The notes below the pieces were generated by a model. The model had not been told where the DNA came from. It saw only the letters and a program-made list of their open reading frames with translations, and did no database searches. A stretch of 40,567 nt of DNA from a virus. Made by a program: the position numbers and the translations under genes. The stretch lies in the IMG/VR virus record IMGVR_UViG_3300033145_000158, positions 1 through 40,567 of that record; one strand, 5' to 3'. This document shows positions 2,225-18,623 of the stretch, piece after piece. Within the stretch, counting starts at the first letter, position 1. Every line of letters begins with the position of its first letter.

Positions 2225-3672
2225 TAACAACGAGCCTGACAACTAACGGACTTCTATCTCAATTGGCTGAGGAAGTGATCGAGGAATATGACACCGGCGA
2301 GTCGGGGGCTGATGTCGCCGATATCGTCGCCAACCTCTTGGCTTTTCAACGCAAATCAACGCCGATCACAGTCGGGACTATTGGCGTCACCGGGACAAGG
2401 GCTATACAAGTCACCACCGCCCGGACTATCCTCTCTGTTTTGCTGGAGCTGCAGGAAAGCGTGGGGGGTTATATTAACGTCGATAACGACCGCGTCCTGG
2501 ATTGGCCAACCGATACCGGGGAGGACAAGGGGCAGCAAATCAGATATCGAAAGAACCTGGTCGGCATCGAGCGCACCCGGAACTGGGAAGATTTCTGCAC
2601 CAAACTTCACCTAACTGGGGGAGAAGGCAAGCTATCGGATATTACGGTTGGACCGGTAGCTGTCGACACCGACACCGATGCCACCTATGGCTATATCACA
2701 CTCAAAGAGGCCTACTCGGCCTATCTTGGCTTCACGGCTGAAGGCGAGGCGCTGCCGGCTAATGTTACTATCTGGAAAGAGAATGCAGCACCGGCAGAAA
2801 TTACACCGTCGAATGGGTCGGGAGCCGGGTGGTTTGACATAGAGAGAATATACGACGGTGTTTGGGATACATTTTACGCTGCCAGCGCGGCAGGCTCAGG
2901 AGAGGGGACATACAGCTCTTGGGCTTATGTCGATATTGCCAGCGCATCCTATGTTGGTTTGCACCTCAAAACCAGTGATGGCATGGGGCGTCTGGGTGGG
3001 ATGCAAATAGAGGTCTACGACGGGGCTGACTGGACTAATATCTATGACGGCTCAGAAAGCAAGAATGGGTATATCTATTTTCCTGTCCAGACAGTAGAGA
3101 GGATTAGAATACGGGCGAAGTATGGTTGGGCCAGCGACCAGTTAGAAGTCTTTGAGATCCTTGGTTTAGAAGCAGATATCTCGGATGACACGGCAAACTG
3201 GGTGCAGGGCGCTTTCGAGAATATAGCCAGGTGCGACATCGGGGATTGGGATGCCGGCGCTACTTACTTGATATCTTATACCCACGCCAATTACCTGGTG
3301 GCCTGGGACAAGATAACAGACGGCGATGATATCGTGGCCCACATCGTCCCTGTGCCATCCCGGATCTACAGTATATCGCTGGTCGAATACGGGCGAATAC
3401 TACTCACCGAATTGAAGGAGGATTCCTACACCTATGCGATAGATGCCGTCAACCTGGCCGAGGTAGACAAGAAGTTTAGTTTCGACGAGTTACAGCTCGG
3501 CTCGATAATCACCGTAATTGATGAGGACCTGGGCATTGATATATCAGCCCGGGTGGTTAGAATCTCGTTTGACGCGCTACAGCCGGAGAGGATGCAGATT
3601 GAGATTTCCTCTAGGATTCGGGACATTGCTGACATTATTGCGGGTATGAACAAACTGATACGAGAAGTCTAA
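2221..3672 (+). CDS. Tail hub protein with inserted discoidin-like domain
   Basis: The chosen start is ATG 2221, which forms an ATGA overlap with the upstream stop; an in-frame TTG at 2215 is the alternative. The product has 483 residues. Residues 1-195 contain TTNGLLSQLAEEV and GQQIRYRKNLVGIE, typical of siphovirus tail hub (gp37-like, tail endopeptidase-like) proteins. Residues about 195-318 look like an F5/8-type-C (discoidin) beta-sandwich: RIYDGVWDTFY, SWAYVDIASASYVGLHL, a Y-D-G-A-D-W strand and a final RIRAKYG strand. The C-terminal part returns to the hub fold (SFDELQLGSIITVIDEDLG). The N-terminal hub domain is missing and is found in upstream genes. The insert probably binds host surface glycans (inference). 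Confidence 0.75.
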   Translation: MITTSLTTNGLLSQLAEEVIEEYDTGESGADVADIVANLLAFQRKSTPITVGTIGVTGTRAIQVTTARTILSVLLELQESVGGYINVDNDRVLDWPTDTGEDKGQQIRYRKNLVGIERTRNWEDFCTKLHLTGGEGKLSDITVGPVAVDTDTDATYGYITLKEAYSAYLGFTAEGEALPANVTIWKENAAPAEITPSNGSGAGWFDIERIYDGVWDTFYAASAAGSGEGTYSSWAYVDIASASYVGLHLKTSDGMGRLGGMQIEVYDGADWTNIYDGSESKNGYIYFPVQTVERIRIRAKYGWASDQLEVFEILGLEADISDDTANWVQGAFENIARCDIGDWDAGATYLISYTHANYLVAWDKITDGDDIVAHIVPVPSRIYSISLVEYGRILLTELKEDSYTYAIDAVNLAEVDKKFSFDELQLGSIITVIDEDLGIDISARVVRISFDALQPERMQIEISSRIRDIADIIAGMNKLIREV

Positions 3673-4432: not shown

Positions 4433-4648
4433 CTACAGCGTTAATACAGCAGCGTTAAATAATAACTGGTAACCTACTATGCGTATGGCTTTTGAGGCAG
4501 CCTCTTGGCCATCTCAGTGCGTTTCCTGTGGCCAGAGGCCAGAATTACCCCCTACCGTTTACCCGGCGGTAGGGGGTGCTTTTTTGTTTCTATTTTTAAG
4601 CGGGAAAGTATTTTCAAAAGATAATTTGGCTTCACGCCTAGAGGGGGA
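4433..4648. other. Gene-free stretch between late and early regions
   Basis: No credible coding sequence is seen. It holds a direct repeat of CAGCGTTAA (about 4437 and 4452), an imperfect hairpin at 4500-4540 (CCTCTTGGCC against GGCCAGAGG) and the intrinsic terminator at 4547-4586. An AT-rich spacer then leads to the early promoter. This boundary is a plausible place for a packaging site or control region, but I see no direct sign of either. Confidence 0.6.
4547..4586 (+). terminator. Strong intrinsic terminator after the late operon
   Basis: The arms ACCCCCTACCG (4547-4557) and CGGTAGGGGGT (4567-4577) pair perfectly over 11 bp around a 9-base loop. They are followed by GC and a run of T (about 4580-4585). 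This is a textbook Rho-independent terminator placed directly after the lysis-like genes, isolating them from the early promoter downstream. Confidence 0.92.
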
Positions 4649-4683
4649 TTGACAAGTGCACAGCGATACTTTATACTGTGCAC
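4649..4683 (+). promoter_or_regulatory. Early sigma70-type promoter overlapped by a palindromic operator
   Basis: TTGACA at 4649-4654 and TATACT at 4672-4677 are separated by exactly 17 bases, a near-consensus promoter. The inverted repeat GTGCACAG (4656-4663) - 12 bases - CTGTGCAC (4676-4683) occupies the spacer and covers the end of the -10 box. A protein bound there should block polymerase. The gene 13 bases downstream encodes a ribbon-helix-helix protein, so autorepression is the simplest reading (inference). Confidence 0.85.
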
Positions 4684-4695
4684 ATAGGAGATAAA

Positions 4696-4848
4696 ATGAG
4701 TACAAAAGCTATTGGCATAAGAGTCCCGGTTATCCTGTTAGATAAGATAAACGAGAGAGCTGCGTGCCGGGACATATCGTTCAACAAGTGGGTAAATTGG
4801 GCTTTGGCTCAGGGAATCCGAAGTTACAAGAAGAAGCCCCAGGACTAA
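4696..4848 (+). CDS. Ribbon-helix-helix (Arc/CopG-type) DNA-binding protein
   Basis: The product has 50 residues; ATG 4696 follows AGGAG. The N-terminal strand KAIGIRVP, a first helix (ILLDKINERAACRD) and a second helix after ISFNKWVNWAL are the secondary structure pattern of Arc/MetJ/CopG repressors, which bind palindromes as dimers through the paired strands. It is the first gene after a promoter whose -10 box is covered by a perfect 8-8 inverted repeat, so it probably represses its own operon. It is the only repressor-like protein in the window apart from the small HTH protein at 8125. Confidence 0.75.
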   Translation: MSTKAIGIRVPVILLDKINERAACRDISFNKWVNWALAQGIRSYKKKPQD

Positions 4849-4864
4849 TGAAAGGAGGTCGATC

Positions 4865-4999
4865 ATGGAAGAGCTGGAGAGGTTAGCCCGAATCAGGGAC
4901 GAGGCAGCCGATGTGTTGCTTGCCGAGATACGGGTTGATGCTAGAATCGCCGAGCATATACGAGACCAGTGGGCGAATCAAAACGCCGGGTCGGAATAG
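4865..4999 (+). CDS. Small hypothetical early protein
   Basis: ATG 4865 follows an excellent site, AAAGGAGGTC. The 44-residue product is highly charged and probably helical throughout (EELERLARIRDEAADVLLAE, then further Arg/Glu-rich sequence). No family is recognised. It lies between the ribbon-helix-helix gene and the coiled-coil gene at 5029, probably in the same transcript. The strong ribosome binding site is the main argument that it is real. Confidence 0.6.
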   Translation: MEELERLARIRDEAADVLLAEIRVDARIAEHIRDQWANQNAGSE

Positions 5000-5028
5000 A
5001 CCTGGCACAAAAAAGGGAGGACAAACCA

Positions 5029-5721
5029 ATGACAGAACCAGAGCATAAGGAAACCCAACTATCCAGGGCAATCGTAAACGTCTTGCCTGGGCTGGACCCG
5101 GCAGTAATCGCTATCAGGGAGGAGGTCCAGAAGCTACTCGTCTATTCTCAGGATCGGGCGGTGACCTCAATTCAGGATGCCGAGAGCGCCACCAATGACC
5201 TCAGCATTATAAGCCAACTCAAGAAGTCGCTGGACGAGAAGCGCAAGGAATACCTTAAACCTTTGCAGGACTACCAGAAAGCCATTCGTGAGGTATTCGA
5301 CTCTATCAGTGTGCCACTGGATCAGGCCAACAAGGTGACCAAGGGCAAGGTTTTAGCCTTCAAGCAGGAGCAGGAAAGGCTACGAGTGGAAGCCGAGAAC
5401 GCGGCAAGGCTGCAACGTGAGGCAGATGCAGCAGCCCGTAAAGTGCTCGAGGAAACCGGGGAGATAGTGGAGAGGCGTCAGGAAGCGCCAGTGGTAGTCC
5501 CTGAAGAAGTTTCATCACAAGTCCATGCCGACCTCGGAACCAGCGGGGTAACAAAAACTTGGAGGTTTGAGGTTACCGACTTCACCGCCATCCCGGACAA
5601 GTACAAGGAAACTAACGACAAGGCAATCCTGAAAGTAATCCGGGCCGGTGGCGACATCCCTGGTATAAGAGCATGGCAAGAAGATGGGCTCAGGGTAACT
5701 GCTGTGAAGGGGGAGGGATAA
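5029..5721 (+). CDS. Phage early coiled-coil protein
   Basis: The chosen start is ATG 5029, nine bases after AAAGGGAGGA; a reading from 4969 would overlap the previous gene and has no comparable site. The 230-residue product is helical: residues about 30-150 form a charged coiled coil (SIISQLKKSLDEKRKEYLKP, then FKQEQERLRVEAENAARLQ). It ends in a small conserved-looking domain, WRFEVTDFTAIPDKY then GGDIPGI. Proteins with this layout are common in early regions of siphoviruses next to recombination or replication genes; their biochemical role is not clear to me. A link to DNA metabolism is inferred from the neighbours. Confidence 0.65.
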   Translation: MTEPEHKETQLSRAIVNVLPGLDPAVIAIREEVQKLLVYSQDRAVTSIQDAESATNDLSIISQLKKSLDEKRKEYLKPLQDYQKAIREVFDSISVPLDQANKVTKGKVLAFKQEQERLRVEAENAARLQREADAAARKVLEETGEIVERRQEAPVVVPEEVSSQVHADLGTSGVTKTWRFEVTDFTAIPDKYKETNDKAILKVIRAGGDIPGIRAWQEDGLRVTAVKGEG

Positions 5722-5722
5722 G

Positions 5723-5923
5723 ATGGAACTACAATACGAAGTTACCCAAGTAAACGGGAATCCGGCAATACACCTGTTGTCAAGTGACGGCCATGTCGCA
5801 ACTATCTGGGGTACTGTAAAACCGCCGGAATCCCCTTTTGAACGTGCTAATAATATCATTGAGGTACTGGATAAAGACAATCACTATGGCGCGATAATAT
5901 GGGGGGCGGTGCCAAGGTGGTAA
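5723..5923 (+). CDS. Hypothetical early protein, 66 aa
   Basis: ATG 5723 follows GGGGGAGGGATAAG, a clear binding site, and lies one base after the preceding stop. The product alternates short strands (LQYEVTQVNGNPAIHLL, HVATIWGTV) with a helix (FERANNIIEVLDKDN) and ends AIIWGAVPRW. No family is recognised. The repeated I-W-G-x-V motif is the only internal feature of note. Confidence 0.6.
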   Translation: MELQYEVTQVNGNPAIHLLSSDGHVATIWGTVKPPESPFERANNIIEVLDKDNHYGAIIWGAVPRW

Positions 5924-6096
5924 ATCCGATAGAACTGCAAAAGCTAAAGACAATCAAGTCAATCCAGGAACCACGGGAGCTAGAGAAAATGGCCACGGTG
6001 AATCACTGCCTATTCGGGATCTTCAACAAGTGGTGGATACACTGTGACAGGGGAGACAATGAGTGGGGGGGATATCTCTGGCTGAGGAGAAACTGA
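5899..6096 (+). CDS. Hypothetical protein, start uncertain
   Basis: The frame is open from ATG 5899, overlapping the upstream gene by 25 bases. A GTG at 5917 lies a few bases after GGGGGGCGG and may be the real start. The product (65 or 59 residues) has a charged helix (ELQKLKTIKSIQEPRELEKM) followed by an aromatic-rich C-terminus (IFNKWWIHCDRGDNEWGGYL). No family is recognised. Its stop is overlapped by the next gene's start (TGATG), consistent with coupled translation. Confidence 0.45.
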   Translation: MGGGAKVVNPIELQKLKTIKSIQEPRELEKMATVNHCLFGIFNKWWIHCDRGDNEWGGYLWLRRN

Positions 6097-6335
6097 TGCT
6101 GATTACTAAAGATAACATTCGCAACCCCGCTGCTTTGTGGAAGTGGATAAAAAGAGAAGCCGAATCTGATAATATAGAGAGTTTGGAACTGGAGACATTG
6201 ATTGAAGATATACCGATTGATAATTCCCCTATGGTATTAAAGCATGTATCGGGGAGAGTGCTGACTATTACACTAGGCCCTGACACTGCAGAGGCAGAAC
6301 TGATGCCGATTTTTGTAAGTAAAAAGGAGAGATAA
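6096..6335 (+). CDS. Hypothetical early protein, 79 aa
   Basis: The chosen start is ATG 6096 (TGATG overlap), 6-7 bases after GAGGAGAAA. An ATG at 6063 in the same frame lacks a clear site. The product begins MLITKDNIRNPAALWKWIKR, has an acidic middle (LELETLIEDIPIDNSPM) and ends in two strands, GRVLTITLG and MPIFVSKKER. No family is recognised. It directly precedes the Gp3-like gene and is probably co-translated with its neighbours. Confidence 0.55.
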   Translation: MLITKDNIRNPAALWKWIKREAESDNIESLELETLIEDIPIDNSPMVLKHVSGRVLTITLGPDTAEAELMPIFVSKKER

Positions 6336-6336
6336 G

Positions 6337-7392
6337 ATGCCAATCAACGGACTAAGCGAAATCACACGTATGCCCCGAATTGCCAAAATCCACCTGGGCG
6401 AGAAGGTGCAGAAAGGAAACACGACATACCCCAAAGCCACAGACTATTTTGTGCTACCCAGTAAAGACGATGTGGGGGAGCTGGCCGACATACTCCGGGC
6501 AACACTAGGGGACAAACCAAAAGAGTTACCAGTCATATTCCCAGTAGATAATGATGAGGAATTTGCTTCCCAGTATTACCGGTGTTACGGCAAGACCCGG
6601 GGGCTTGTTTGCCGAGGGGATGGGATCAAGGCCACCTGCAAGATTGATACAACCACTGGCGCCATGATTACCAGGGACACCAAGCCGGAGAACGTCGTTC
6701 TAAAAGAGATAACCTGTGCAGGGAAGGAATGCCCTTACTACCAGGACAAACAATGCAGGGAAATGATGATGCTCCAGTTTATGCTGCCGGATATACCGGG
6801 TATTGGAATCTGGCAGATAGACACCAGCTCCATCAACTCGATTATCAATATCAACTCCAGCATCAAGATGTACCGGGGCATCTTCGGCAAGGTCGCTATG
6901 CTACCACTGACCCTCACCCTGAAACCGCAAGAGGTCTTATCGCCGGTGGACCAGAAGAAAAAGACGGTCCATGTGTTGAATCTGGAAGTCCGGCAGAGCC
7001 TCAGGGATATGTTGGCCATAGCTGAGAAGACACCGCTTGAACGGCTGGCGCTACCGGCGGCAGACGATGAGAAGCCCGAGATTGTGGAGGATGCAGTAGA
7101 AACTACCACAACCGCAGTAAAACCTGATATGCCACAAGCCGAGGAGGATACCAAGAACTACTGGCCAGAAGGGGATGGTGGCCCACCGCCAGCCGCTCAA
7201 AAAACTGATACACCCGCCCAGAAAGGCGAGCAACCAATGAGAAACCTGGGGGATTTGTTCCGGGCGTGTAAGGCCTTCTACCAGTTAATGCCCGACCAAG
7301 TATGCAAAGAGCTGGGGGTATCAGGCAAGGAGAGTATCAGCGACGTAGCCGATGCCTGGGAGAAAATCAAGGCGATAAAAGCCGGGGGATAA
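6337..7392 (+). CDS. Gp3-like / recombination directionality factor-like protein
   Basis: The product has 351 residues; ATG 6337 follows AAAAAGGAGA. Residues about 10-230 match a family I know from phage annotation as Gp3-like or RDF-like (including phiC31 gp3, the directionality factor of a serine integrase): PRIAKIHLGEKV, YPKATDYFVLP, QYYRCYGKTRGLVCRGDG, a Cys cluster C-x4-C-x6-C around residue 129, and IWQIDTSSINSIININSSI. An acidic, Pro-rich linker and a helical C-terminal part (LGDLFRACKAFYQLMPDQV) are extra. Many phages carry this family without a serine integrase, and none is visible here, so a general role in DNA replication or recombination is equally likely. Family assignment is from memory of its motifs. 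Confidence 0.65.
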   Translation: MPINGLSEITRMPRIAKIHLGEKVQKGNTTYPKATDYFVLPSKDDVGELADILRATLGDKPKELPVIFPVDNDEEFASQYYRCYGKTRGLVCRGDGIKATCKIDTTTGAMITRDTKPENVVLKEITCAGKECPYYQDKQCREMMMLQFMLPDIPGIGIWQIDTSSINSIININSSIKMYRGIFGKVAMLPLTLTLKPQEVLSPVDQKKKTVHVLNLEVRQSLRDMLAIAEKTPLERLALPAADDEKPEIVEDAVETTTTAVKPDMPQAEEDTKNYWPEGDGGPPPAAQKTDTPAQKGEQPMRNLGDLFRACKAFYQLMPDQVCKELGVSGKESISDVADAWEKIKAIKAGG

Positions 7393-7515
7393 CAGTGGAT
7401 GCTTACTATCAGGAAAGCCTACCACAGGCCACCAGAGCCACGAGAGAGGGCTTTAAACCCTTTTAAGGTATTATGGGGGATAGGCTAGGCGTAAAATTTT
7501 GGAAAGGGGGACGTG

Positions 7516-7767
7516 ATGCAAGTTGGGAAGAATCACAGAGTAACCACTGATGAGATGAATGTTATCTTATCCAAACGCCTTATTCATCAGAAAACAGGCG
7601 AGGAGTACTGGACGCCACTTACCTACCACGCTACGTTGCGGGATGCCTTGAACGAGTTGGTCAGGATGAATGTAAACAAGACGGGGCTCACGGATTTACA
7701 GACAGTGGTAGACAAGATGGATGAAACTCGCAAGCTCATTACAGCAGCAATAGGAAGTAAAGGATAA
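7516..7767 (+). CDS. Hypothetical protein, 83 aa
   Basis: ATG 7516 lies after GGAAAGGGGGAC; a GTG at 7513 in the same frame sits too close to that site but cannot be excluded. The product has a short N-terminal polar part, then YWTPLTYHATLRDALNELV and a C-terminal helix (DLQTVVDKMDETRKLITAAI). The pattern of a Tyr/Thr-rich strand followed by two amphipathic helices recurs in small phage early proteins, but I cannot name a family. Confidence 0.6.
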   Translation: MQVGKNHRVTTDEMNVILSKRLIHQKTGEEYWTPLTYHATLRDALNELVRMNVNKTGLTDLQTVVDKMDETRKLITAAIGSKG

Positions 7768-7777
7768 TTAACAACAT

Positions 7778-7867
7778 GGTGGCCTGGGTTAAGTAACAGC
7801 GTGAGTTTCGCTGGTCACTTTCAGCCCAATGCAGTAGCCGGGACGAAACTGGCCAGCCCAGGCCACC
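7778..7867 (+). ncRNA. Candidate structured RNA (three-way junction) in 5' leader
   Basis: The outer arms 7778-7790 (GGTGGCCTGGGTT) and 7855-7867 (AGCCCAGGCCACC) pair over 13 bp with one G-U. Inside lie a perfect 5-bp hairpin, CAGCG (7797-7801) with CGCTG (7809-7813) and a 7-base loop, and a second helix, 7814-7822 (GTCACTTTC) with 7845-7853 (GAAACTGGC), 8 of 9 paired. This makes a clean three-way junction of 90 nt. It ends 9 bases before AAAGGAGG and ATG 7888. It is not a tRNA. It could be a leader regulator, a stand-alone RNA, or a DNA cruciform. No known class is recognised. Confidence 0.55.
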
Positions 7868-7887
7868 GCCAAATAAAGGAGGATACA

Positions 7888-8058
7888 ATGCAGACTTATC
7901 TAGTTACATACTCAGACGGCAGCACAACCGAAATCCGGGCCGTTAGTGAAGACAAGGCTATCCACCAAGCACTGGACAGTAGTCACCTACATATAGTGAG
8001 CGTCGAAGAGCTGAAACCAATCCCCCCAAACCCAGTCGGCCATGCAGGGGATAGTTAA
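7888..8058 (+). CDS. Small protein downstream of structured leader
   Basis: The chosen start is ATG 7888, directly after AAATAAAGGAGGATACA. The longer frame from 7801 would run through the hairpin element and lacks a binding site. The 56-residue product begins MQTYLVTYSDGSTTEIRAVS, then a helix (EDKAIHQALDSS), a strand (HLHIVSVEEL) and a Pro-rich tail. This beta-beta-alpha-beta layout is frequent in tiny phage proteins. No function can be assigned. Confidence 0.65.
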   Translation: MQTYLVTYSDGSTTEIRAVSEDKAIHQALDSSHLHIVSVEELKPIPPNPVGHAGDS

Positions 8059-8076
8059 AAATAATAAGTTAAGGGC

Positions 8077-8105
8077 CTGACAAGTTGTCTAGTTTAAGGT
8101 AGACT
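8077..8105 (+). promoter_or_regulatory. Candidate promoter before the HTH gene
   Basis: CTGACA (8077-8082) and TAGACT (8100-8105) are spaced 17 bases apart, each one base from consensus. A short inverted repeat GTCTA-8-TAGAC (8087-8104) spans the promoter core in much the same position as the operator at 4656-4683. It could start transcription of the replication block. Confidence 0.55.
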
Positions 8106-8124
8106 GTAACAAAGGTTGTAAGGT

Positions 8125-8283
8125 ATGAGATACGATTCATTGAGAAAGATAGCACGTAATTCGCAACTCGTAAAATACCGGAGGGAAAACCCTGGATTGA
8201 GCCTCAAAGAAATTGGGCAGGTATTCGGCATCAGCCATGTTCGTGTATATCAAATTCTAAAGAAGGAGATAGCTGGTGAGTGA
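8125..8283 (+). CDS. Small helix-turn-helix DNA-binding protein
   Basis: The product has 52 residues. ATG 8125 follows AAAGGTTGTAAGG. Residues about 22-48 read NPGLSLKEIGQVFGISHVRV, a helix-turn-helix resembling sigma factor region 4 or small phage regulators, with the turn at FGIS and the recognition helix HVRVYQILKK. The N-terminus is basic. It lies just after a promoter with an inverted repeat and overlaps the next gene by 8 bases. Autoregulation or control of the replication block is plausible but inferred. Confidence 0.65.
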   Translation: MRYDSLRKIARNSQLVKYRRENPGLSLKEIGQVFGISHVRVYQILKKEIAGE

Positions 8284-8728
8284 ATATGCGGAGAAGTTAA
8301 GGGACCCTCGCTGGCAAAAGAAACGACTCAAAATCCTTGAACGGGACGAATGGGCCTGCCAGATATGCCATGATTCTGAGTCCACATTAGTTGTCCATCA
8401 CCGAATATATATTGCCAAAACAGAGCCTTGGGATTACCCTGATGATTTATTGGTTACACTTTGTGAGAACTGCCACGAATTAGAACGGGAAATACGCCCA
8501 GAATATGAAAAACTCTTATTGAATAAAGTTCTCTCTAAATTCTTCGCTGATGATTTAAGGCGGTTAGCTCTTGGTTTTAGTAATATAGAATTACTCCATG
8601 CATCAGAGGTTATAGCTAGTGTATATGAGTGGGCATTATCTTCCCCCGCAATTCAGCAAGAACTACTAGGCCGATTTTGGGAAAACCTACATACAGAAGC
8701 AAAGGAGAAGATTAATGCCAAGGGGTAG
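8276..8728 (+). CDS. HNH endonuclease domain protein
   Basis: GTG 8276 lies 7 bases after AAGGAG and gives 150 residues. The zinc/HNH core is CQICHDSESTLVVHHRIYIA followed by LVTLCENCHELE: two CxxC pairs (about residues 29-32 and 63-66), the HH pair and the final His at CENCH. The N-terminus DPRWQKKRLKILERDEWAC is typical of the compact HNH fold of many phage and McrA-type nucleases. The remaining 80 residues are helical. It may nick DNA in replication or packaging, or be a free-standing mobile endonuclease. The location just before the replication initiator is the only contextual clue. Confidence 0.75.
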   Translation: MSEYAEKLRDPRWQKKRLKILERDEWACQICHDSESTLVVHHRIYIAKTEPWDYPDDLLVTLCENCHELEREIRPEYEKLLLNKVLSKFFADDLRRLALGFSNIELLHASEVIASVYEWALSSPAIQQELLGRFWENLHTEAKEKINAKG

Positions 8729-9479
8729 GTTTTTAAGCCGGGTAATTAGCCTTGATGAAAAAGTGGATGCCTTGTCAGATGATACGGCCCGCCTACTTTT
8801 TACATGGCTGATACCCCATCTGGATTGTGAGGGGAGGCAATATGGCGATCCTATTACCATCAAGAGTATTGTCTTTCCCCGGCGTAACATTTCACCCAAA
8901 AGAATAGAGAAATATCTCGTGGAATTAGAAAAAACAGGGCTGATTGTACGCTACTCTGTCAACGGAAACACCTATTTATTTTCACCGCAGTTTGAGAAGC
9001 ACCAAACGGGATTACAAAAAAGCAAGGAAGCTCAGTCACAAATACCGCCGATTACTCCAGAGTTACTCCAGAGTAAGTCAAGAGTAGGTCATTTGCAAGT
9101 TAAAGGTAAAGTTAAAGGTAAAGTTAAAGAAGAAACTACTAAAGAAAGTGTCTTCAAAAAAGAGTTGGCAAAAAGGTTTGGCATCTTCTGGGAGGCTTAC
9201 CCCAAGAAGGTATCCAAAGGTCAAGCCGAAAAGGCTTTCCAGCATATTCATCCTAGCGAAGGGCTTATGGGCATTATTCTCGCAGCCATCTCAAAGCAAA
9301 AGAAATCAGATGATTGGTTAAAGGAAGGCGGGAAATATATCAAGAACCCATCGACTTGGCTTAATGCTAGATGCTGGGAAGACGAAATACGGAAAGGAGG
9401 CGGTAATGGAAGCGCTAAGCAAAACCTTGGAAAGCTACCCGCGCACTACGCCAAACCAGAAGAATTCTACACTGATTGA
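8715..9479 (+). CDS. Phage replication initiator / replisome organiser
   Basis: The product has 254 residues; ATG 8715 follows AAGGAGA and overlaps the HNH gene by 14 bases. The N-terminal half (residues 1-105: FLSRVISLDEKVDALSDDTA, LFTWLIPHLDCEGR, SIVFPRR, KYLVELEKTGLIVRY) is a winged-helix domain typical of phage replication initiators. A basic, repetitive linker K-V-K-G-K-V-K follows. The C-terminal part, FWEAYPKKVSKGQAEKAF and YIKNPSTWLNARCWEDE, is the region commonly found upstream of DnaC-like loaders. The next gene is such a loader, as expected for a lambda O/P-like pair. Direct DNA repeats in the linker may mark the origin. Confidence 0.8.
   Translation: MPRGRFLSRVISLDEKVDALSDDTARLLFTWLIPHLDCEGRQYGDPITIKSIVFPRRNISPKRIEKYLVELEKTGLIVRYSVNGNTYLFSPQFEKHQTGLQKSKEAQSQIPPITPELLQSKSRVGHLQVKGKVKGKVKEETTKESVFKKELAKRFGIFWEAYPKKVSKGQAEKAFQHIHPSEGLMGIILAAISKQKKSDDWLKEGGKYIKNPSTWLNARCWEDEIRKGGGNGSAKQNLGKLPAHYAKPEEFYTD
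9099..9130 (+). repeat. 12-bp direct repeats, possible origin iterons
   Basis: GTTAAAGGTAAA occurs twice in tandem (9099-9110, 9111-9122), followed by a partial third copy, GTTAAAGA. They lie in the linker of the replication initiator gene, with an AT-rich stretch to about 9165 just after. Lambdoid phages keep iterons plus an AT-rich unwinding zone inside the O gene. The repeat also codes K-V-K-G, so it could simply be a coding repeat. Confidence 0.45.
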
Positions 9480-10209
9480 GTCCCGGATAGCCGATTGCGA
9501 GTTCCGGTTAATCAATTATGGGTATGCCCCTAATCCTCACTGTCCTATATGCCAGGGCGGGGGAGTGGTCCACCCGGAAAGGAACGATGGGAGTGTGGAT
9601 TTCTCCCGGGTGATAGACTGTCCGTCCAGTGATTGTATTGAGAAATCATATGCGGCATACCGGCGTGGTGATACACACCTGGCAGCCGTGGGTATATCCC
9701 CTAAGAAACAGAAGTTCGAGGACTTCCAAAAGAGAACAGGGGCTAAAGAGGCCTTCAAGATGTTCAAGGATTTAGCCACTGGTGATGCCAGTTACATGAT
9801 GCTGCTCTGCTATGGTGGAAAAGGCAATGGTAAGACCCACCTGTGTAACGCCCTGGCCCTGGGGCTCCTTGATCGGGGAGTAACCACTAAACTATACACG
9901 GTGTCCGATATGGTGAGTGAGTTAAGGGCAGGAATAAACAATAACACGATTGAGCCCATGATTAAAAAGTTAAAGCAGGTCGAAGCTCTTATTTTAGATG
10001 ACTACAAGCCGGAATATGGGACTCCCTGGGAGATGTCGAGGGTAGAGGAAATTATAGATGCGCGGTATCGTGATGCCTTGATAACCGTGCTGACCACCAA
10101 CCAGGGATTAGAGACAGTACCTGACCGGATAACAAGTAGATTCATGGATCCGGCGCTGGGGGTGATAGTCCTCAATGAAGGTAGCGACTACCGAATGAGG
10201 CGCAGATGA
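9406..10209 (+). CDS. DnaC/IstB-like helicase loader ATPase
   Basis: The chosen start is ATG 9406 right after AAAGGAGGCGGTA; an ATG at 9364 has no site. The product has 267 residues. An N-terminal zinc-binding part is suggested by CPICQGGGVVHP and CPSSDC (residues about 47-75). The AAA+ core has Walker A GGKGNGKTH (about residue 140), Walker B EALILDDYK (about 196) and sensor LTTNQ (about 229). This is the layout of phage DnaC-type loaders, which deliver the replicative helicase to the origin. It overlaps the initiator gene by 74 bases. No phage-encoded helicase is seen, so it probably recruits the host DnaB. Confidence 0.82.
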   Translation: MEALSKTLESYPRTTPNQKNSTLIESRIADCEFRLINYGYAPNPHCPICQGGGVVHPERNDGSVDFSRVIDCPSSDCIEKSYAAYRRGDTHLAAVGISPKKQKFEDFQKRTGAKEAFKMFKDLATGDASYMMLLCYGGKGNGKTHLCNALALGLLDRGVTTKLYTVSDMVSELRAGINNNTIEPMIKKLKQVEALILDDYKPEYGTPWEMSRVEEIIDARYRDALITVLTTNQGLETVPDRITSRFMDPALGVIVLNEGSDYRMRRR

Positions 10210-10240
10210 TACGCTCGATAATAGCCAGGGAGGCGAAATA

Positions 10241-10579
10241 ATGGTCAAGTCTGAATTTAAGGCCGAACTGAGAAAGGTTTTTAGAAGGCATACAGGACAA
10301 AACCAAGCAATCACCGGGCGGGAACTTGCAGGGATGTTTGGGTGCCACGATGATCGGAGAATACGAGTGGTAATCCGAGAGCTTATCACCGAAGGTTTGC
10401 CGGTAGCATCGTCGACCGAATCGCCAGCCGGGTATTTTGTAGTTAGTAACCGGCGAGAGGCCGAGAAATATGCTGCAGGGGAGAAGTCGAGGCTAATCGA
10501 AATAGCGCTACGGCGCCGGGACTTCTGCCGTGGGGCTGCTCTTCACTTGGCTCCGGTCGAGCAAAGGAGGTTGATATAG
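10241..10579 (+). CDS. Winged-helix protein of the replication region
   Basis: The product has 112 residues; ATG 10241 follows GGGAGGCGAAATA. Residues about 22-75 (QAITGRELAGMFGCHDDRR, then VVIRELITEGLPVASS and GYFVVSNRREAEKY) form a winged-helix pattern: a helix-turn-helix around GMFGCHDD and a wing ending in G-Y-F-V. The C-terminus is a basic helix. Proteins of this type are often found beside phage replication genes and are presumed DNA-binding regulators. I know no biochemical role. Confidence 0.65.
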   Translation: MVKSEFKAELRKVFRRHTGQNQAITGRELAGMFGCHDDRRIRVVIRELITEGLPVASSTESPAGYFVVSNRREAEKYAAGEKSRLIEIALRRRDFCRGAALHLAPVEQRRLI

Positions 10580-10624
10580 AGTTATGATACTTAGTATATT
10601 CTTAGCTATGGGAGATTGGATTAG

Positions 10625-10855
10625 ATGGAAGGACTTAAAAAGCGAGTGGTAAAAACAGTGTATTTAGAACATTACTGTAAGGCTTGTGAGTTAAACAATC
10701 CACCAAAGTTGTTTGAGGGAGCAGTTAAGGATAATGGCGATATTGAATGGCCTGTACTTGGGGGTTATCACATTAGTTACTGCTTCCACTGTGGGTTAAA
10801 ACTCCCGATAAAATACCCTATAGAAAAGGAAGCACACAATGAACCTAGAAGCTAA
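10625..10855 (+). CDS. Small zinc-finger-like protein
   Basis: ATG 10625 follows GGGAG at a rather long spacing. The 76-residue product has two Cys pairs, CKAC (about residues 18-21) and CFHCG (about 53-56), arranged as a four-cysteine zinc site around a short beta region (DIEWPVLGGYHISY). The C-terminus is charged. It is the first of a run of small AT-rich genes. No family is assigned. Confidence 0.55.
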   Translation: MEGLKKRVVKTVYLEHYCKACELNNPPKLFEGAVKDNGDIEWPVLGGYHISYCFHCGLKLPIKYPIEKEAHNEPRS

Positions 10856-11054
10856 GAGGGAAGATGTGTTCTATATTCTGCAAGATATTAGGTTGGGCGG
10901 ATTATCAGAAAGAGAAGGGATAAAGGAACTGGGTCATATAGGCGTAATGCTGGTTGAGAAAGACGTGGAGTTGCCAGAGTGTGCTATTCCGATTGTGTGC
11001 CCCTTACTCAAAGGTGGCTATGTCAAAGCATATCCCTTACAGGAGGAGATATGA
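10839..11054 (+). CDS. Hypothetical protein, 71 aa
   Basis: ATG 10839 follows AAAAGGAAG and overlaps the previous gene by 17 bases. The product is helical at first (EAKREDVFYILQDIRLGG, then SEREGIKELGHIGVMLV) and ends in a short strand segment and an acidic tail. No motif is recognised. Its stop is overlapped by the next start (ATGA). Confidence 0.55.
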   Translation: MNLEAKREDVFYILQDIRLGGLSEREGIKELGHIGVMLVEKDVELPECAIPIVCPLLKGGYVKAYPLQEEI

Positions 11055-11332
11055 AGATTAGGGAGGCAATAGCAGAGCGAATTTATTGGGATTGGAATAG
11101 GGATGCAGTTACTAAGCCAATCATTGGGTGGACTGACTTGCCTGAGTATAGAAAGCAGGTTTATAGGGATTGGGTAGATGAGTTTATCTTTGCTATCAGA
11201 GAAGATGGCTGTCGGTTAGCCATAGTTAAAGAGGAGGGAGAGCTGCCTCAGCCAGATATGACTTATGAGCAAGGGCAACAAGATATGCTCAACGCTGGCT
11301 ATGTTCAGGAGGTTGTTAGTAACCCTCATTGA
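11051..11332 (+). CDS. Hypothetical protein, 93 aa
   Basis: The chosen start is ATG 11051, an ATGA overlap right after AGGAGGAGAT. The longer frame from 10979 lies inside the upstream gene. The product begins MKIREAIAERIYWDWNRDAV and contains WTDLPEYRKQVYRDWVDEFI, helical and rich in Trp, Arg and Asp. It resembles small phage proteins with a W-x-x-L-P-x-x-x-R motif, but I cannot name a function. The promoter for the following block lies over its last codons. Confidence 0.55.
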   Translation: MKIREAIAERIYWDWNRDAVTKPIIGWTDLPEYRKQVYRDWVDEFIFAIREDGCRLAIVKEEGELPQPDMTYEQGQQDMLNAGYVQEVVSNPH

Positions 11333-11357
11333 CATATTGGTAATAACATGGTATTAT
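11329..11357 (+). promoter_or_regulatory. Promoter for the small-gene block
   Basis: TTGACA (11329-11334) is followed after 17 bases by TATTAT (11352-11357), with an overlapping perfect TATAAT at 11355-11360 (20-base spacing). The next gene starts at 11377 after AAGGAGG. A consensus -35 within a compact operon suggests that the nuclease-containing block can be expressed separately from the replication genes. Confidence 0.7.
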
Positions 11358-11376
11358 AATATCAAGGAGGGCTATT

Positions 11377-11787
11377 ATGGGTAGTATGATTGGAAATAAA
11401 TTAGGTTTAGCGGGCGAGTTTAGGGTAATGTCTGAATTACTTTTAAGGGGACACAACCTCGCAAAATCCTACTTGGAGGAGGGGGCTGATATAATACTTG
11501 AGAATGGCTTACGTATAGAAGTTAAAAGTGGGCATAGATGCCATTACCAAGGTAAGTACAGGAAAAAGGGTAATTACAATTTCACATTCAAGGGAGGGGC
11601 AAGGAAGACACCCCAAAACTTAGACGGCTGTGATTTTGTTATTCTTTGGTGCATAGATGACGAATGTTTCTTCATTATTCCAGTAGGAGAAATTAGTGCG
11701 TCTTGTATAGGTATCTGTAATATCTCACCTAAGTTTAAGTATTACTCTTATAAAGATAATTGGGATTTATTGGAGGTAAAGGAATGA
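11377..11787 (+). CDS. PD-(D/E)XK nuclease-like protein
   Basis: The product has 136 residues; ATG 11377 follows CAAGGAGGGC. The core GEFRVMSELLLRGHNLAKSY, then EEGADIILENGLRIEVKS, shows the expected order: a conserved Glu in the first helix (about residue 14), Asp in GAD (about 38) and Glu-x-Lys in IEVKS (about 48-50). This is the catalytic set of PD-(D/E)XK enzymes such as Hjc-type resolvases and related homing or repair nucleases. A later strand, DFVILWCIDDECFFIIP, completes the fold. It could resolve recombination or replication intermediates, or be a selfish nuclease. It heads its own transcript. Confidence 0.7.
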   Translation: MGSMIGNKLGLAGEFRVMSELLLRGHNLAKSYLEEGADIILENGLRIEVKSGHRCHYQGKYRKKGNYNFTFKGGARKTPQNLDGCDFVILWCIDDECFFIIPVGEISASCIGICNISPKFKYYSYKDNWDLLEVKE

Positions 11788-11990
11788 CTGACCAAGAGAT
11801 TGTAGATAAGGTTAAAGTGCGGATGAATAAAAATGGGTACGAGTGGGAATTAAAGTTTTGGCAATCCCAACCTTATGTTGAAAAAGTTCTAGTCCGCTAT
11901 GTGCGGTGGCTTGAGAAGGAGAAGTGTGATAACAGGATAAGAGGGGTGTTTATGGGTATAAGAGAAGGGCTAGGAAAGGAGAAATTATGA
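11784..11990 (+). CDS. Hypothetical protein, 68 aa
   Basis: The chosen start is ATG 11784, an ATGA overlap after GGAGGTAAAGG; the frame from 11760 lacks a site. The product is charged and helical (TDQEIVDKVKVRMNKNGYEW, then VLVRYVRWLEKEKCDNRI). No family is recognised. It overlaps both neighbours by 4 bases and so is part of a tightly coupled chain. Confidence 0.55.
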   Translation: MTDQEIVDKVKVRMNKNGYEWELKFWQSQPYVEKVLVRYVRWLEKEKCDNRIRGVFMGIREGLGKEKL

Positions 11991-12265
11991 CTGAATTACT
12001 ACTTACAGATAAACAGATGGATGATGCTATGTTTGGCGTTTCTGATGGGGAAACAGTAATAGAAAATTGGCAAGCAGGCGATGGGAGATTGCGAGCAATA
12101 GCCAATGAAGCAGCCAGGCAAGCGGTAGAGTATGTGTTTGAGAGGATTGAGATAGCAAGCCGTCCGATGAGTACTAATATGGCTGGTATCTCTTTAGGAA
12201 GAGAGCAGTATGAGGCAATCAAGCAAGGGATACTGGAGGAATTAAATACAGAGGTAAAGGAATGA
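11987..12265 (+). CDS. Hypothetical protein, 92 aa
   Basis: ATG 11987 lies in an ATGA overlap after AAAGGAGAAA. The product is acidic and mostly helical: MTELLLTDKQMDDAM, LRAIANEAARQAVEYVFERI, then LGREQYEAIKQGILEELNTE. The pattern resembles small phage proteins that form helical bundles, but no family is recognised. The following gene overlaps its stop by 4 bases. Confidence 0.55.
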   Translation: MTELLLTDKQMDDAMFGVSDGETVIENWQAGDGRLRAIANEAARQAVEYVFERIEIASRPMSTNMAGISLGREQYEAIKQGILEELNTEVKE

Positions 12266-12570
12266 AATTCAGAAAGAAACCAGTGGTAATCAAGGCGGTA
12301 CAACTAAGGTGGGATACATGGAGTGAGATGTGCGACCACGCTGGCGTAGGCAAACTAGAGGATGGTGAGCCTAGTGGTTGTTATGTGGATGCAGAGGGGA
12401 ATGGTTGTGAGGGTTGCCCAGATGCTGATTGCCGAATAGGGTTATGGATACCCATACTAGACGGTTTGGTGCTTGCTGTACAGGATGATTGGGTAGTTAA
12501 GGATGCTAAAGGTAAGCTTTACCCTGTTAAACCTGACATCTTTGAGCAAACCTATGAACCTGTAATTTAA
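12262..12570 (+). CDS. Conserved small phage protein (RKKPVVIKAVQ type)
   Basis: The product has 102 residues and starts in an ATGA overlap after GAGGTAAAGG. The N-terminus MKFRKKPVVIKAVQL and the C-terminus DDWVVKDAKGKLYPVKPDIF then EQTYEPV are the two hallmarks of a very widespread uncharacterised phage protein family that I recognise from many phage genomes. Between them is a Cys-rich insert (C-x2-C-x4-C around residues 49-56, GCEGCPDADC) that could bind metal and is less usual. Function is unknown. Confidence 0.65.
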   Translation: MKFRKKPVVIKAVQLRWDTWSEMCDHAGVGKLEDGEPSGCYVDAEGNGCEGCPDADCRIGLWIPILDGLVLAVQDDWVVKDAKGKLYPVKPDIFEQTYEPVI

Positions 12571-12597
12571 GATACTAGATGAGATAAGAGGTGAGAA

Positions 12598-12849
12598 ATG
12601 AAGGTAGCATACTTTTGGTGGGCTGACGCTGCGATGTATGACAATTCTCCCCAAGAAATTAGTGATGTCAAAGAAACCTATGAGTTAGCACGAATGTTTA
12701 GTGCTGGTATTCTAATTAATGAAACTGAGGCAATGGGTACACTGGCTTTAGATGTGCAAATGAATGAAGAGACCTGTAGAGCAGTACATACATATCCCAA
12801 GGTTTGCTTTAGGGAGTTCAAAGTAATTGATGTCAAGGAGGGTGAGTGA
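12598..12849 (+). CDS. Hypothetical protein, 83 aa
   Basis: ATG 12598 follows AGAGGTGAGAA. The product begins with a hydrophobic strand (MKVAYFWWADAAMYD), then a helix (VKETYELARMFSAGI) and later strands (VCFREFKVIDV). It looks like a small alpha/beta protein. No family is recognised. The next gene starts on its stop codon. Confidence 0.5.
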   Translation: MKVAYFWWADAAMYDNSPQEISDVKETYELARMFSAGILINETEAMGTLALDVQMNEETCRAVHTYPKVCFREFKVIDVKEGE

Positions 12850-13163
12850 TGAAAAAACTAGGTGGACAGTTTTGCATACTTGATAGTAAGTGGCATACCC
12901 ATTGTGGAGAACTTACTCAGTCAAGCCAAGAGTTAATCTGCTCTCTATTCCACCCAAAGCCTGGCAAGAATGGGTTGCTGGGTGATAAAGAAAGAGATAA
13001 TGAAGACACTACGGACACTGACAAACTAATGGCAGGGAAGATTACGGAGGCTGTATGTGACCAATTTAGCGACTGGATGGCTGAACCTACTCCGTTCAAT
13101 CTAAAGGCAGATATTTATTATCGGGTTAGGAAAGTGCAGGAGGCGAGTAATGTTACAGAATGA
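12849..13163 (+). CDS. Hypothetical protein sharing the ICSLF-x-PKP motif
   Basis: The chosen start is ATG 12849 (TGATG overlap after AAGGAGGGTGA); GTG 12846 is an alternative. The 104-residue product carries QELICSLFHPKPGKNGLLGD at residues about 28-48, closely matching DAICSLFEPKPDPSRLLSDD in the product of 13325. This suggests duplicated genes or a shared binding element. The C-terminus is a mixed helix/strand segment (EAVCDQFSDWMAEPTPFN). No function is known. Confidence 0.5.
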   Translation: MKKLGGQFCILDSKWHTHCGELTQSSQELICSLFHPKPGKNGLLGDKERDNEDTTDTDKLMAGKITEAVCDQFSDWMAEPTPFNLKADIYYRVRKVQEASNVTE

Positions 13164-13332
13164 AGACATCAAGGGTTGTATCCATTTCTGGGAGGCGCAA
13201 CTAGCTCAATGCAAGCTAATAGTGGGTGATTCTACCAGGTCATTGGTAGACCAGACTATAGAGGCATTGAAAGAGAATCTGGATACTAGGATAAGAGAGG
13301 ATAAGGTTAAGGAGATGATGGGTAATGGATAA
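13150..13332 (+). CDS. Small hypothetical protein, 60 aa
   Basis: ATG 13150 follows GCAGGAGGCGAGTA. The product is helical, with one likely amphipathic helix (CIHFWEAQLAQCKLIVGD) and a C-terminal charged helix (ENLDTRIREDKVKEMM). It overlaps both neighbours. Such small helical phage proteins can be host-takeover or antidefence factors, but nothing in the sequence shows that. Confidence 0.5.
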   Translation: MLQNEDIKGCIHFWEAQLAQCKLIVGDSTRSLVDQTIEALKENLDTRIREDKVKEMMGNG

Positions 13333-13810
13333 ACTAGGGGGAGTGGAGAAGATAAAGTATGCCATAGGTGAAATCCTATCAGGGTATGCCGAGTTATGTA
13401 TTGAAATAAACGGGCAATCTATCAAGCAATTCCAGCTAAACGTAGATGCTATCTGCTCTCTATTTGAACCAAAGCCTGACCCTAGTAGGTTGCTGAGTGA
13501 TGATGCAATAGATAATGCTTGGCCTGATGAAACCCCCGAATGTAACACCATAGCAGAAACACTAAAGCAGGGGATACTAATTGGGGCAAAAATGATAGCC
13601 AAAGCCCAGGATGTCAAGACTGCTACAATGGTAAGGGCTAAGACTATCAAGGAAGTGGGGGAGTGGTTAGAAAATGGTAATGGGAAGCCACCCCCACGAG
13701 GTTCTATGATTTACTGTATTTCGGAACTAGAATTGGTGACACTCAAGAAAGGGGAGGTGCCTGATAAAGAACAGAACCTAGATGAATTAGAAGGAGGGAT
13801 TGAGCCTTGA
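13325..13810 (+). CDS. Hypothetical protein, second ICSLF-x-PKP paralogue
   Basis: The product has 161 residues; ATG 13325 overlaps the upstream stop region and follows GGAGATGATGG. Residues about 40-62 (VDAICSLFEPKPDPSRLLSD) match the 12849 product. The C-terminal part has a helix (MIAKAQDVKTATMVRAKTIK), then EVGEWLENGN and an acidic end. Proteins with A-x-A-Q-D-x-K-T helices and such ends are frequent in early phage regions and uncharacterised. No catalytic residues are apparent. Confidence 0.5.
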   Translation: MDKLGGVEKIKYAIGEILSGYAELCIEINGQSIKQFQLNVDAICSLFEPKPDPSRLLSDDAIDNAWPDETPECNTIAETLKQGILIGAKMIAKAQDVKTATMVRAKTIKEVGEWLENGNGKPPPRGSMIYCISELELVTLKKGEVPDKEQNLDELEGGIEP

Positions 13811-13896
13811 AGCCAACTTTGATTGAGATACCCTACCGCTGGGTGGACAAATTATTGGAGAGGTTTTTACAATGGATGGTAAGGCTTTACCACTAA
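13807..13896 (+). CDS. Possible 29-residue peptide with TTG start
   Basis: A TTG at 13807 lies 8 bases after GGAGGG and opens a 29-residue frame (MKPTLIEIPYRWVDKLLERF and a basic tail) that overlaps the upstream stop and the start of the nuclease gene at 13872. The binding site is good and the amphipathic composition is coherent. The size and rare start make this uncertain; it may serve only to couple translation to the nuclease gene. Confidence 0.3.
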   Translation: MKPTLIEIPYRWVDKLLERFLQWMVRLYH

Positions 13897-14213
13897 CCAT
13901 CACTGAGGCGGCTTTTAGCCTTCAGGTGGAGGATATGCTAAAACTATTCGGGTGGCGCTGGTGCCATTTCCGTCCAGCATGGAGTGCTAAAGGGTATAGG
14001 ACTCCCATCAAGGGTTACAAGGGATTTCCCGATTATGTGGCCGTGCGAAACGGGGTGTGCTTATTTATTGAACTCAAAAGCGAAAAGGGTATTTTAAGTG
14101 ATGATCAAAAAGAATGGCTTGATATGTTAAGCAAAGTCCCAGGGTTAGGTGTTTTTATCTGGAGGCCTAGTGACTTCGACGAGATGGCTGCCATCCTGGG
14201 AGGGGTTAAGTGA
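13872..14213 (+). CDS. VRR-NUC domain nuclease
   Basis: The product has 113 residues; ATG 13872. It has the compact VRR-NUC pattern of the PD-(D/E)XK superfamily: an N-terminal helix with Glu (SLQVEDMLKLFGWRWCHF), then GFPDYVAVRNG (the catalytic Asp at PDY), LFIELKSEKG (Glu-x-Lys) and SDDQKEWLDMLSKVPG. The family includes phage stand-alone nucleases and the FAN1 catalytic domain, which cut structured or flapped DNA. The binding site is weak and lies inside the preceding frames, so coupling is likely. It is directly followed by a methyltransferase gene overlapping its stop (GTGA). Confidence 0.82.
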   Translation: MDGKALPLTITEAAFSLQVEDMLKLFGWRWCHFRPAWSAKGYRTPIKGYKGFPDYVAVRNGVCLFIELKSEKGILSDDQKEWLDMLSKVPGLGVFIWRPSDFDEMAAILGGVK

Positions 14214-14842
14214 AACCTAATCTACTGGATTTATTCTGTGGGGCTGGTGGTGCGAGTATGGGGTATCACCGTGCTGGCTTTGAGGTAGAGGGTATGGATA
14301 TTAAACCCCATCCCCATTACCCGTTCAAGTTCTACCAGGCTGATGCTCTGGAATTTCCCTTAGAGGGGTATGATGCTTATCACGCCAGTCCGCCGTGCCA
14401 GGCTTATAGTGAGGCAACCCCCATTACCACAAAAGGCAAACACAAGAAGTTAATCAAAGCCACTCACAATCTATTAGTGGAAACAAGGAAACCTTATGTG
14501 ATTGAGAATGTAGAAGGTGCTAGGTGGCACTTAAAAAATCCAATAATGTTATGCGGGTCAATGTTCGGGTTGGGGGTTTGGAGACATCGTTGGTTTGAGG
14601 TTTTCCCCGGTTACTTTTTATCGCCTTTTAGTTGCCAGCACAATGGGCATCCAGTAACAATCAACCCACCCGCCAATGCACGGAAATCACAGGGAGGAAA
14701 ACGGAATTTTGAAAAAGAACAAGTCGCTATGGGCATAGACTGGATGGATAAAACGGAAATCTCGCAAGCAATCCCCCCTGCCTATACCGAATACATAGGG
14801 AAGTATTTATTGGCCACAATACTGAGAGGATCTGAAGCATGA
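14210..14842 (+). CDS. Short C5-cytosine DNA methyltransferase
   Basis: GTG 14210 overlaps the upstream stop. The 210-residue product has motif I LLDLFCGAGGASMGYHRAGF (residues 5-24, SAM binding), the catalytic Pro-Cys in ASPPCQAYSEA (about residues 61-71) and the ENV motif in YVIENVEGARW (about 96-106). It also has an R-H-R-W motif near 125 and a C-terminal helix region near PPAYTEYIGKYL. Typical C5 enzymes exceed 300 residues; this one has little room for a target-recognition domain, as in other short phage homologues. It probably modifies phage DNA to evade host restriction. Activity is not certain. Confidence 0.82.
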   Translation: MKPNLLDLFCGAGGASMGYHRAGFEVEGMDIKPHPHYPFKFYQADALEFPLEGYDAYHASPPCQAYSEATPITTKGKHKKLIKATHNLLVETRKPYVIENVEGARWHLKNPIMLCGSMFGLGVWRHRWFEVFPGYFLSPFSCQHNGHPVTINPPANARKSQGGKRNFEKEQVAMGIDWMDKTEISQAIPPAYTEYIGKYLLATILRGSEA

Positions 14843-15060: not shown

Positions 15061-15476
15061 CAACCGTGAAGGATTTTTACTCGCCTGGTGAAATTCGATT
15101 TACTGTTAAGCAATCCCTTTGGTTAATCCAAAACCTGGGCACGCTTCGGGAAGGCCGCTGGCCCCCGGAATACTTGAGCGTCATGGGCAGAGGGAAGGGA
15201 CCTCGCAGGGCTCCGTTTGAAACACCTATATTCTACGCCGCTGAAATTGAGACTCGGACGGAACGATGCGGGATAGATGGGTTGATTCTGATAGCTATTG
15301 ATTGCTGGGGCATGACCGTAGACTCGCTGATGATATACCTCCGCATGCCTGAGTGGTCTATCCGCAAAAGAAAGAAGAGAGCGCTAGGATATGTCAGTAG
15401 CGGGCCCGGCAGGAGATGGCTGGATTCTAAGAAGCGGAAAGCCGAGACATACCAAGAATACAAGAGGCGGAAGTAA
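15057..15476 (+). CDS. Putative phage transcriptional regulator (ArpU/RinA-type position)
   Basis: The product has 139 residues and starts in an ATGA overlap. The middle part, ETPIFYAAEIETRTERCGID then GLILIAIDCWGMTVDSLMIY, is followed by LRMPEWSIRKRKKRALGYVS. It has the look of a helix-turn-helix of the sigma-like late-gene regulators, with the turn near CWGMTVD and a basic recognition region. The C-terminus is strongly basic. Late regulators often sit shortly before the terminase genes, as here (only the helicase-methylase gene intervenes). The assignment rests on pattern and position. Confidence 0.4.
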   Translation: MTTVKDFYSPGEIRFTVKQSLWLIQNLGTLREGRWPPEYLSVMGRGKGPRRAPFETPIFYAAEIETRTERCGIDGLILIAIDCWGMTVDSLMIYLRMPEWSIRKRKKRALGYVSSGPGRRWLDSKKRKAETYQEYKRRK

Positions 15477-18214: not shown

Positions 18215-18623
18215 TGGCACTAACGGTAATGGTAACAGCGGCGGCCGACCAAAGATAGAAATAGACTGGAAGCGCTTTGAGTCCTATTGCGCTGTTCAGT
18301 GCACCCTACGGGAAATCGCTGACTATTTTGACTGCTCCGAGAAGACCATCGAGAGGAAAGTTAAGGAGCATTACGGTTGTCCTTTTGTCAATATTTTTAA
18401 GCGTAGACGGCAGAAGGGGTTAATGAGCCTTCGTGCCAGTTTATTCAAGATGTCTGAAAAGAGTCCTCAGATGGCTATCTTCCTGGCTAAGAACTGGCTG
18501 GGCATGGCAGACAGGACAGAGGTCACCGGCGCCGGGGGTGGACCACTAGAGACAAAGATAATCGTGGCCAGTGCAGAGGACAAGCGGAACGTGGAACGGG
18601 TGATGCACGGTGAGAGAACTTAG
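18204..18623 (+). CDS. terS: Terminase small subunit
   Basis: The product has 139 residues; ATG 18204. After a Gly/Asn-rich start (residues 1-18) comes a helix-turn-helix (CTLREIADYFDCSEKTIERK, residues about 31-50), typical of small terminases that recognise the packaging site. A basic helix (FKRRRQKGLMSLRASLFKM) and an oligomerisation segment (SPQMAIFLAKNWLGMADRTE) follow; the phrase P-x-x-A-I-F-x-L-K/A-N is common in this family. It lies directly before the large subunit and overlaps it by 14 bases. Confidence 0.85.
   Translation: MATNGTNGNGNSGGRPKIEIDWKRFESYCAVQCTLREIADYFDCSEKTIERKVKEHYGCPFVNIFKRRRQKGLMSLRASLFKMSEKSPQMAIFLAKNWLGMADRTEVTGAGGGPLETKIIVASAEDKRNVERVMHGERT

Follow-up and report, generated by a model that had tools for sequence, protein, structure and literature searches.

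Introduction

REP/BIME-type intercistronic hairpins are GC-rich inverted repeats found just after a stop codon, and the c4 antisense RNA can be processed out of phage transcripts. The c4 antisense RNA of phages is catalogued as Rfam family RF01695 (PMC2864571). Phages also use RNA that operates at the level of an entire operon, as documented for the put RNAs of phage HK022 (PMC9378689); antitermination RNA of the put type binds the zinc-binding domain of the RNA polymerase beta' subunit and suppresses termination. In addition, comparative genomics has yielded orphan structured RNA motifs that have a conserved fold and no known function, some of which are linked to phages (PMC2864571 and later collections).

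Here we describe a candidate structured RNA at positions 7778-7867 (plus strand) of a 40,567-base IMG/VR virus record, IMGVR_UViG_3300033145_000158, which was analysed over its full length and is referred to below as the window. Like putL and putR of HK022, it is a folded RNA of the 70-100 nt range in a phage early transcript, and by analogy it might act on the whole operon regardless of which gene comes next (PMC9378689). However, the put-type architecture of two tandem stem-loops close to the early promoter was not found, as the element has one closing helix, with about 3.1 kb separating it from the likely early promoter further upstream. The likeness to c4 antisense RNA lies in being a structured RNA in phage transcripts, but the element has no Rfam match even at E values up to 10; inspection by eye showed no complementarity between the element and the start region downstream. 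As in the REP/BIME-type hairpins, a GC-rich inverted repeat directly follows a stop codon, but the element is not repeated in the genome, is longer and more complex, and has a conserved specific core. The orphan motifs similarly combine a conserved fold with no known function, but they have many homologues with covariation, whereas two copies of our element were found (PMC2864571).

Genomic setting of the element

The element fills most of a 120-nt intercistronic gap (7768-7887) within a run of early genes transcribed from the same strand. It is separated by 10 nt from the stop codon of the preceding 84-aa gene (7513-7767, plus strand) belonging to PHROG 154, which is annotated as a replication initiation protein, and ends 8 nt before the sequence AAGGAGG (7876-7882, plus strand), the strong ribosome binding site that the initial annotation had correctly placed within 20 bases of the element. 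This site serves a 56-aa gene (7888-8058, plus strand, with its ATG at 7888) that could be assigned to no family at the curated cut-off. Folding did not sequester the ribosome binding site. Beyond the 56-aa gene lie genes for an HTH protein and an HNH endonuclease, followed by a rep-like gene (8715-9479) and a DnaC-like helicase loader (9364-10209), the last two on the plus strand. On the other side, an RDF-like gene ends 0.4 kb upstream of the element.

The best sigma-70-like promoter upstream of the element, TTGACA-17-TATACT (4649-4677, plus strand), is a consensus match; the early operon containing the element probably starts there. An inverted repeat (GTGCACAG/CTGTGCAC) overlaps this strong promoter (window 4649-4690) and is likely to be the operator of the early operon. 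No intrinsic terminator was predicted on the element's strand in a scan from 4580 to 14,300, and consensus scans detected neither a promoter directly upstream nor a terminator directly downstream of the element, in this phage or in the second phage described below. The element is therefore probably part of a longer transcript. It is present in a single copy in the genome, and a MITE or other repeat was rejected on this ground.

Several other features of the window were noted. The gene for the large terminase subunit (18610-20718) contains an intein of about 300 aa (residues about 239-540), recognised by matches to Pfam Intein_splicing (E = 7e-12), Hint_2 and the NCBIfam intein C-terminal region. 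A single gene at 15476-17734 joins a SNF2/DEAD-type helicase and an N6/N4 DNA methylase domain. Repeats of 120 nt (40 codons) occur at both ends of the record (1-261 and 39994-40567), which suggests that one repeat-bearing gene spans the record ends, and hence that the genome is circular or circularly permuted.

Predicted fold and chance expectation

The minimum free energy (MFE) fold of 7778-7867 has an energy of -45.5 kcal/mol, and it reproduces exactly the nested pairing that had initially been noticed, namely a 13-bp helix enclosing a 5-bp hairpin and a 9-position helix with one mismatch. In this fold the outer helix (P1) pairs 7778-7790 with 7855-7867 and includes one G-U pair. The first enclosed hairpin, P2 (7797-7813), is composed of CAGCG/CGCTG around the loop TGAGTTT, with 4-5 bp formed between 7797-7801 and 7809-7813. 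The longer arm, P3 (7814-7853), contains a 9-position helix (7814-7822/7845-7853) with one C-C mismatch and one G-U pair, an AG/AC internal loop, a CCC/GGG helix, and a loop with CAGTA; all of these segments were read on the plus strand. An alternative inner fold of the same sequence has an energy of -42.5 as compared to -45.5 kcal/mol, and is related to the MFE fold of the homologue presented below.

In a local shuffle test, z was about -4.6 to -5.0, and none of 200 and none of 300 dinucleotide shuffles were as good. Since the element had been picked from 40 kb, we also performed a look-elsewhere test in which whole 40-kb windows were dinucleotide-shuffled. Each shuffled 40-kb window contained a mean of 0.6 helices of 13 bp that had such spacing and no more than one G-U pair (the real window has two), and a 90-mer at or below -45.5 kcal/mol was present in 1 of 16 shuffled windows. 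The inner 64 nt, taken alone, had a z of -1.4, with 51 of 500 shuffles being as good. Within the real window, the terminator near 4500 is the only segment that exceeds the exact 90-mer in energy. Given the look-elsewhere counts and the unremarkable inner part, energy alone does not establish the element, and the original statement that such pairing is unlikely by chance was overstated. It is conservation, and not folding energy, that supports the element.

A homologue in a divergent phage

Searching IMG/VR with the rep protein retrieved 53 loci, one of which contains the element. This copy is found at 3145-3245 of IMGVR_UViG_3300031227_004974 (L007), a divergent IMG/VR phage. Positions 7804-7863 of the window (plus strand) align with L007 3183-3241 at 88.7% identity over 62 columns (E = 1e-13), and within this conserved block CCGGGACGAAACTGGCCAGCCCAGGC is identical between the two phages. 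In L007 an unrelated 80-aa gene precedes the element, with 12 nt between its stop codon and the element, and an unrelated 84-aa gene follows, after which come rep and then the helicase loader; the 56-aa gene of the window has no homologue in L007. The two phages thus share neither of the genes that flank the element, and the rep and helicase-loader genes further on are common to both.

The proteins that the two phages have in common include an exonuclease-like protein (36%), a 59-aa protein (about 70%), the C-terminus of rep (57%) and the helicase loader (31%), and several later genes are also shared. The longer shared-gene segments (100 nt or more) are 68-80% identical in DNA, as compared to 89% over 62 nt for the element, with some shorter coding pieces matching the element in DNA similarity. 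Among the conserved blocks seen there, the element alone fell outside an evident reading frame; the two others that we inspected hold small ORFs. A protein-coding reading of the segment is disfavoured, as L007 has an in-frame TAG, there is no shared start codon, and the core contains compensating one-base shifts; a frame on the minus strand is open in both copies and has no plausible start.

Comparison of the two genomes also brought up some features in their own right. An ORF of about 29 aa (KPxLIEIxYxxVDxxLERFLQW) is shared between window 13808-13891 and L007 6034-6117 at 80% DNA identity. A protein of about 59 aa with a EPRELEKMATVNHCLFG core is encoded at window 5920-6096 and L007 1265-1435, and in pattern scans it was found within IMG/VR only in these two phages and was absent from GTDB genomes. 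In L007, a second strong GC-rich branched hairpin without a U-tract (3249-3297) directly follows the element; it is absent from the window. Finally, both rep genes carry internal tandem repeats, consisting of 2.8 units of 12 bp in the window (9097-9129, plus strand) and five units of 22 bp in L007. Those of the window are possible iterons of the real origin, and the presence of iteron-like repeats inside both rep genes makes it less likely that the element itself is an origin.

Structure retained between the two copies

The P1 helix of L007 is formed by TTTGCCTGGG/CCCAGGCAAG and has 10 bp. Of the 11 pairs starting at 7778-7788 in the window, 10 can still pair in L007, including two that changed on both sides (from G-C to T-A and from G-C to T-G); the outermost and the two innermost P1 pairs of the window are not kept as such. 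The 5' arm of the L007 helix lies outside the BLAST block, and the linker that follows this arm is 9-11 bases longer than that of the window. A helix as long as this one, in any register, arose in 108 of 20,000 shuffles of the upstream 80 nt. In P3, the lower nine pairs (counted with the flanking G-C 7813-7854) are all retained, two of them as U-G in place of C-G, one of which depends on the alignment chosen. Overall, three of the four positions that changed and still pair became G-U on the plus strand, corresponding to A-C on the other strand. Such wobble changes are tolerated in plus-strand RNA and not on the other strand, which favours RNA of the plus strand.

The inner part of the structure is less constant. 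P2 is out of register in L007, where a shifted CGGC/GCTG version is possible, and the MFE inner fold of L007 consists instead of GTAAC/GTTAC together with a GCCAGT/ACTGGC hairpin (-38.8 versus -34.7 kcal/mol for the P3 fold), placing alternative inner folds within about 4 kcal/mol. Taken whole, the L007 element is not exceptional in energy (z = -1.3). When natural flanks are included, pairing of the L007 P1 varies with flank length from 0 to 0.93, and the helix competes with an upstream hairpin. The power to detect covariation is low, as only two sequences are known.

Judged from the alignment of these two sequences, the supported core of the element is P1 plus the lower P3 arm. Since P2 is not kept in register and rival inner folds exist, the strict three-way junction proposed in the initial annotation is not established and stands as a possibility: its P1 and lower P3 are kept in L007, whereas P2 occurs there only in a shifted register and the rival folds are equal or better. 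The expectation that the arms of a homologue would re-pair was borne out for the outer helix, with its compensated changes, and for the lower part of the long arm.

Searches for known families and further copies

Neither the whole window at gathering score nor positions 7700-7950 at E up to 10 produced a covariance-model match to any of the 4227 families of Rfam 15, and ARAGORN called no tRNA or tmRNA, in line with the earlier impression that the element matches no tRNA or riboswitch. Two short resemblances were discarded, one to the hammerhead (GAAAC), of which core bases are lacking, and one to the c-di-GMP riboswitch (GGGACG); neither had an Rfam match.

When IMG/VR was scanned for exact patterns taken from the element, only L007 and chance matches inside other sequences came up. 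No match was obtained when GTDB was scanned with a 22-mer of the core or with a neighbouring small protein, or when INPHARED and PLSDB were searched at the DNA level, and using the downstream 56-aa gene and the RDF-like gene as protein anchors retrieved no relatives. We also built a covariance model (R1) from the two sequences, removing the linker bases of L007 so that the helices align; over 69 loci and 34 whole records it matched the two copies only. Since 33 other phage records with a related rep contained no match to the element, it does not appear to be tied to that replication type.

Discussion

The element is a candidate structured RNA, an orphan of which two members are known in the collections searched, and this conserved phage segment is probably a real RNA element. 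Its P1 closing helix and long arm are retained, and its genome position is the same, between phages whose adjacent genes differ.

Our leading explanation, which we put forward tentatively, is that the element is a cis-acting folded RNA motif of about 90-100 nt within the early transcript, which is bound by a factor and acts on the whole operon. The combination of no adjoining promoter or terminator, no shared neighbour, a shared place in the operon, and a conserved sequence favours such an operon-level cis RNA. The element would then sit inside a polycistronic early transcript of two related phages and act in cis as RNA, with a protein, or RNA polymerase itself, landing on it in a sequence-specific manner. 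Binding may tune the expression of the downstream replication genes, possibly through processing or stabilisation of the transcript or through a polymerase made resistant to termination. By this explanation the element would not be a ligand sensor for a single neighbouring gene. A more far-reaching version, possible if rather doubtful, is that the two copies represent a new family of phage regulatory RNA, compact and with a conserved CCGGGACGAAACTGGCC core, which would bind a host or phage factor and control how the replication module is expressed; this control might work through a switch between two inner folds that exclude each other while the closing helix stays common to both.

It is unlikely that the element is a free-standing small RNA, processed from the early transcript or made from its own promoter and acting in trans on host or phage targets. 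Its compact closed structure, and its persistence while the flanking genes differ between the two phages, would fit such a molecule, but in both phages it occupies the same place in the operon, with no promoter-like site directly before it and no intrinsic terminator after it. The stand-alone phage RNA that had been suggested at the outset thus gained no support from promoters or terminators.

Even less probable is a purely local intercistronic structure, REP-like or leader-like, which would control the neighbouring small genes only, by protecting the 3' end of the upstream mRNA or by setting the translation of the downstream small ORF. The position of the element, which fills most of the gap and leaves 10 nt to the stop codon on one side and 8 nt to a strong ribosome binding site on the other, is what such a structure would have, but neither neighbouring gene is common to L007, the ribosome binding site is left free, and a simple stabilising hairpin would hardly need 26 identical nucleotides.

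An improbable reading is that no structure was selected at all, with the fold arising by chance in a GC-rich segment and the similarity to L007 reflecting shared ancestry or recent exchange. The look-elsewhere test points in this direction, as do the instability of the L007 P1 with its flanks and the different inner fold. Against it stand a noncoding block conserved at least as well as the shared genes, a linker of variable length, and a closing helix with compensated changes.

A DNA element (a cruciform, replication origin, single-strand initiation site or recombination site) is the most improbable of the readings. Inverted repeats of such size could extrude, and both rep with its helicase loader and the RDF-like gene are close by, but the iteron-like repeats lie inside both rep genes instead and the G-U changes, which would be A-C on the other strand, do not favour a cruciform, weakening the earlier idea of a DNA cruciform near the replication genes.

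These results carry a caution, as long nested pairing spotted by eye in 40 kb was not significant alone, and it was the homologue that carried the argument. If the element is real, it would be a small RNA motif not described before, carried in the early operon of phages from an uncultured lineage, and its conserved core may provide a handle for finding more copies.
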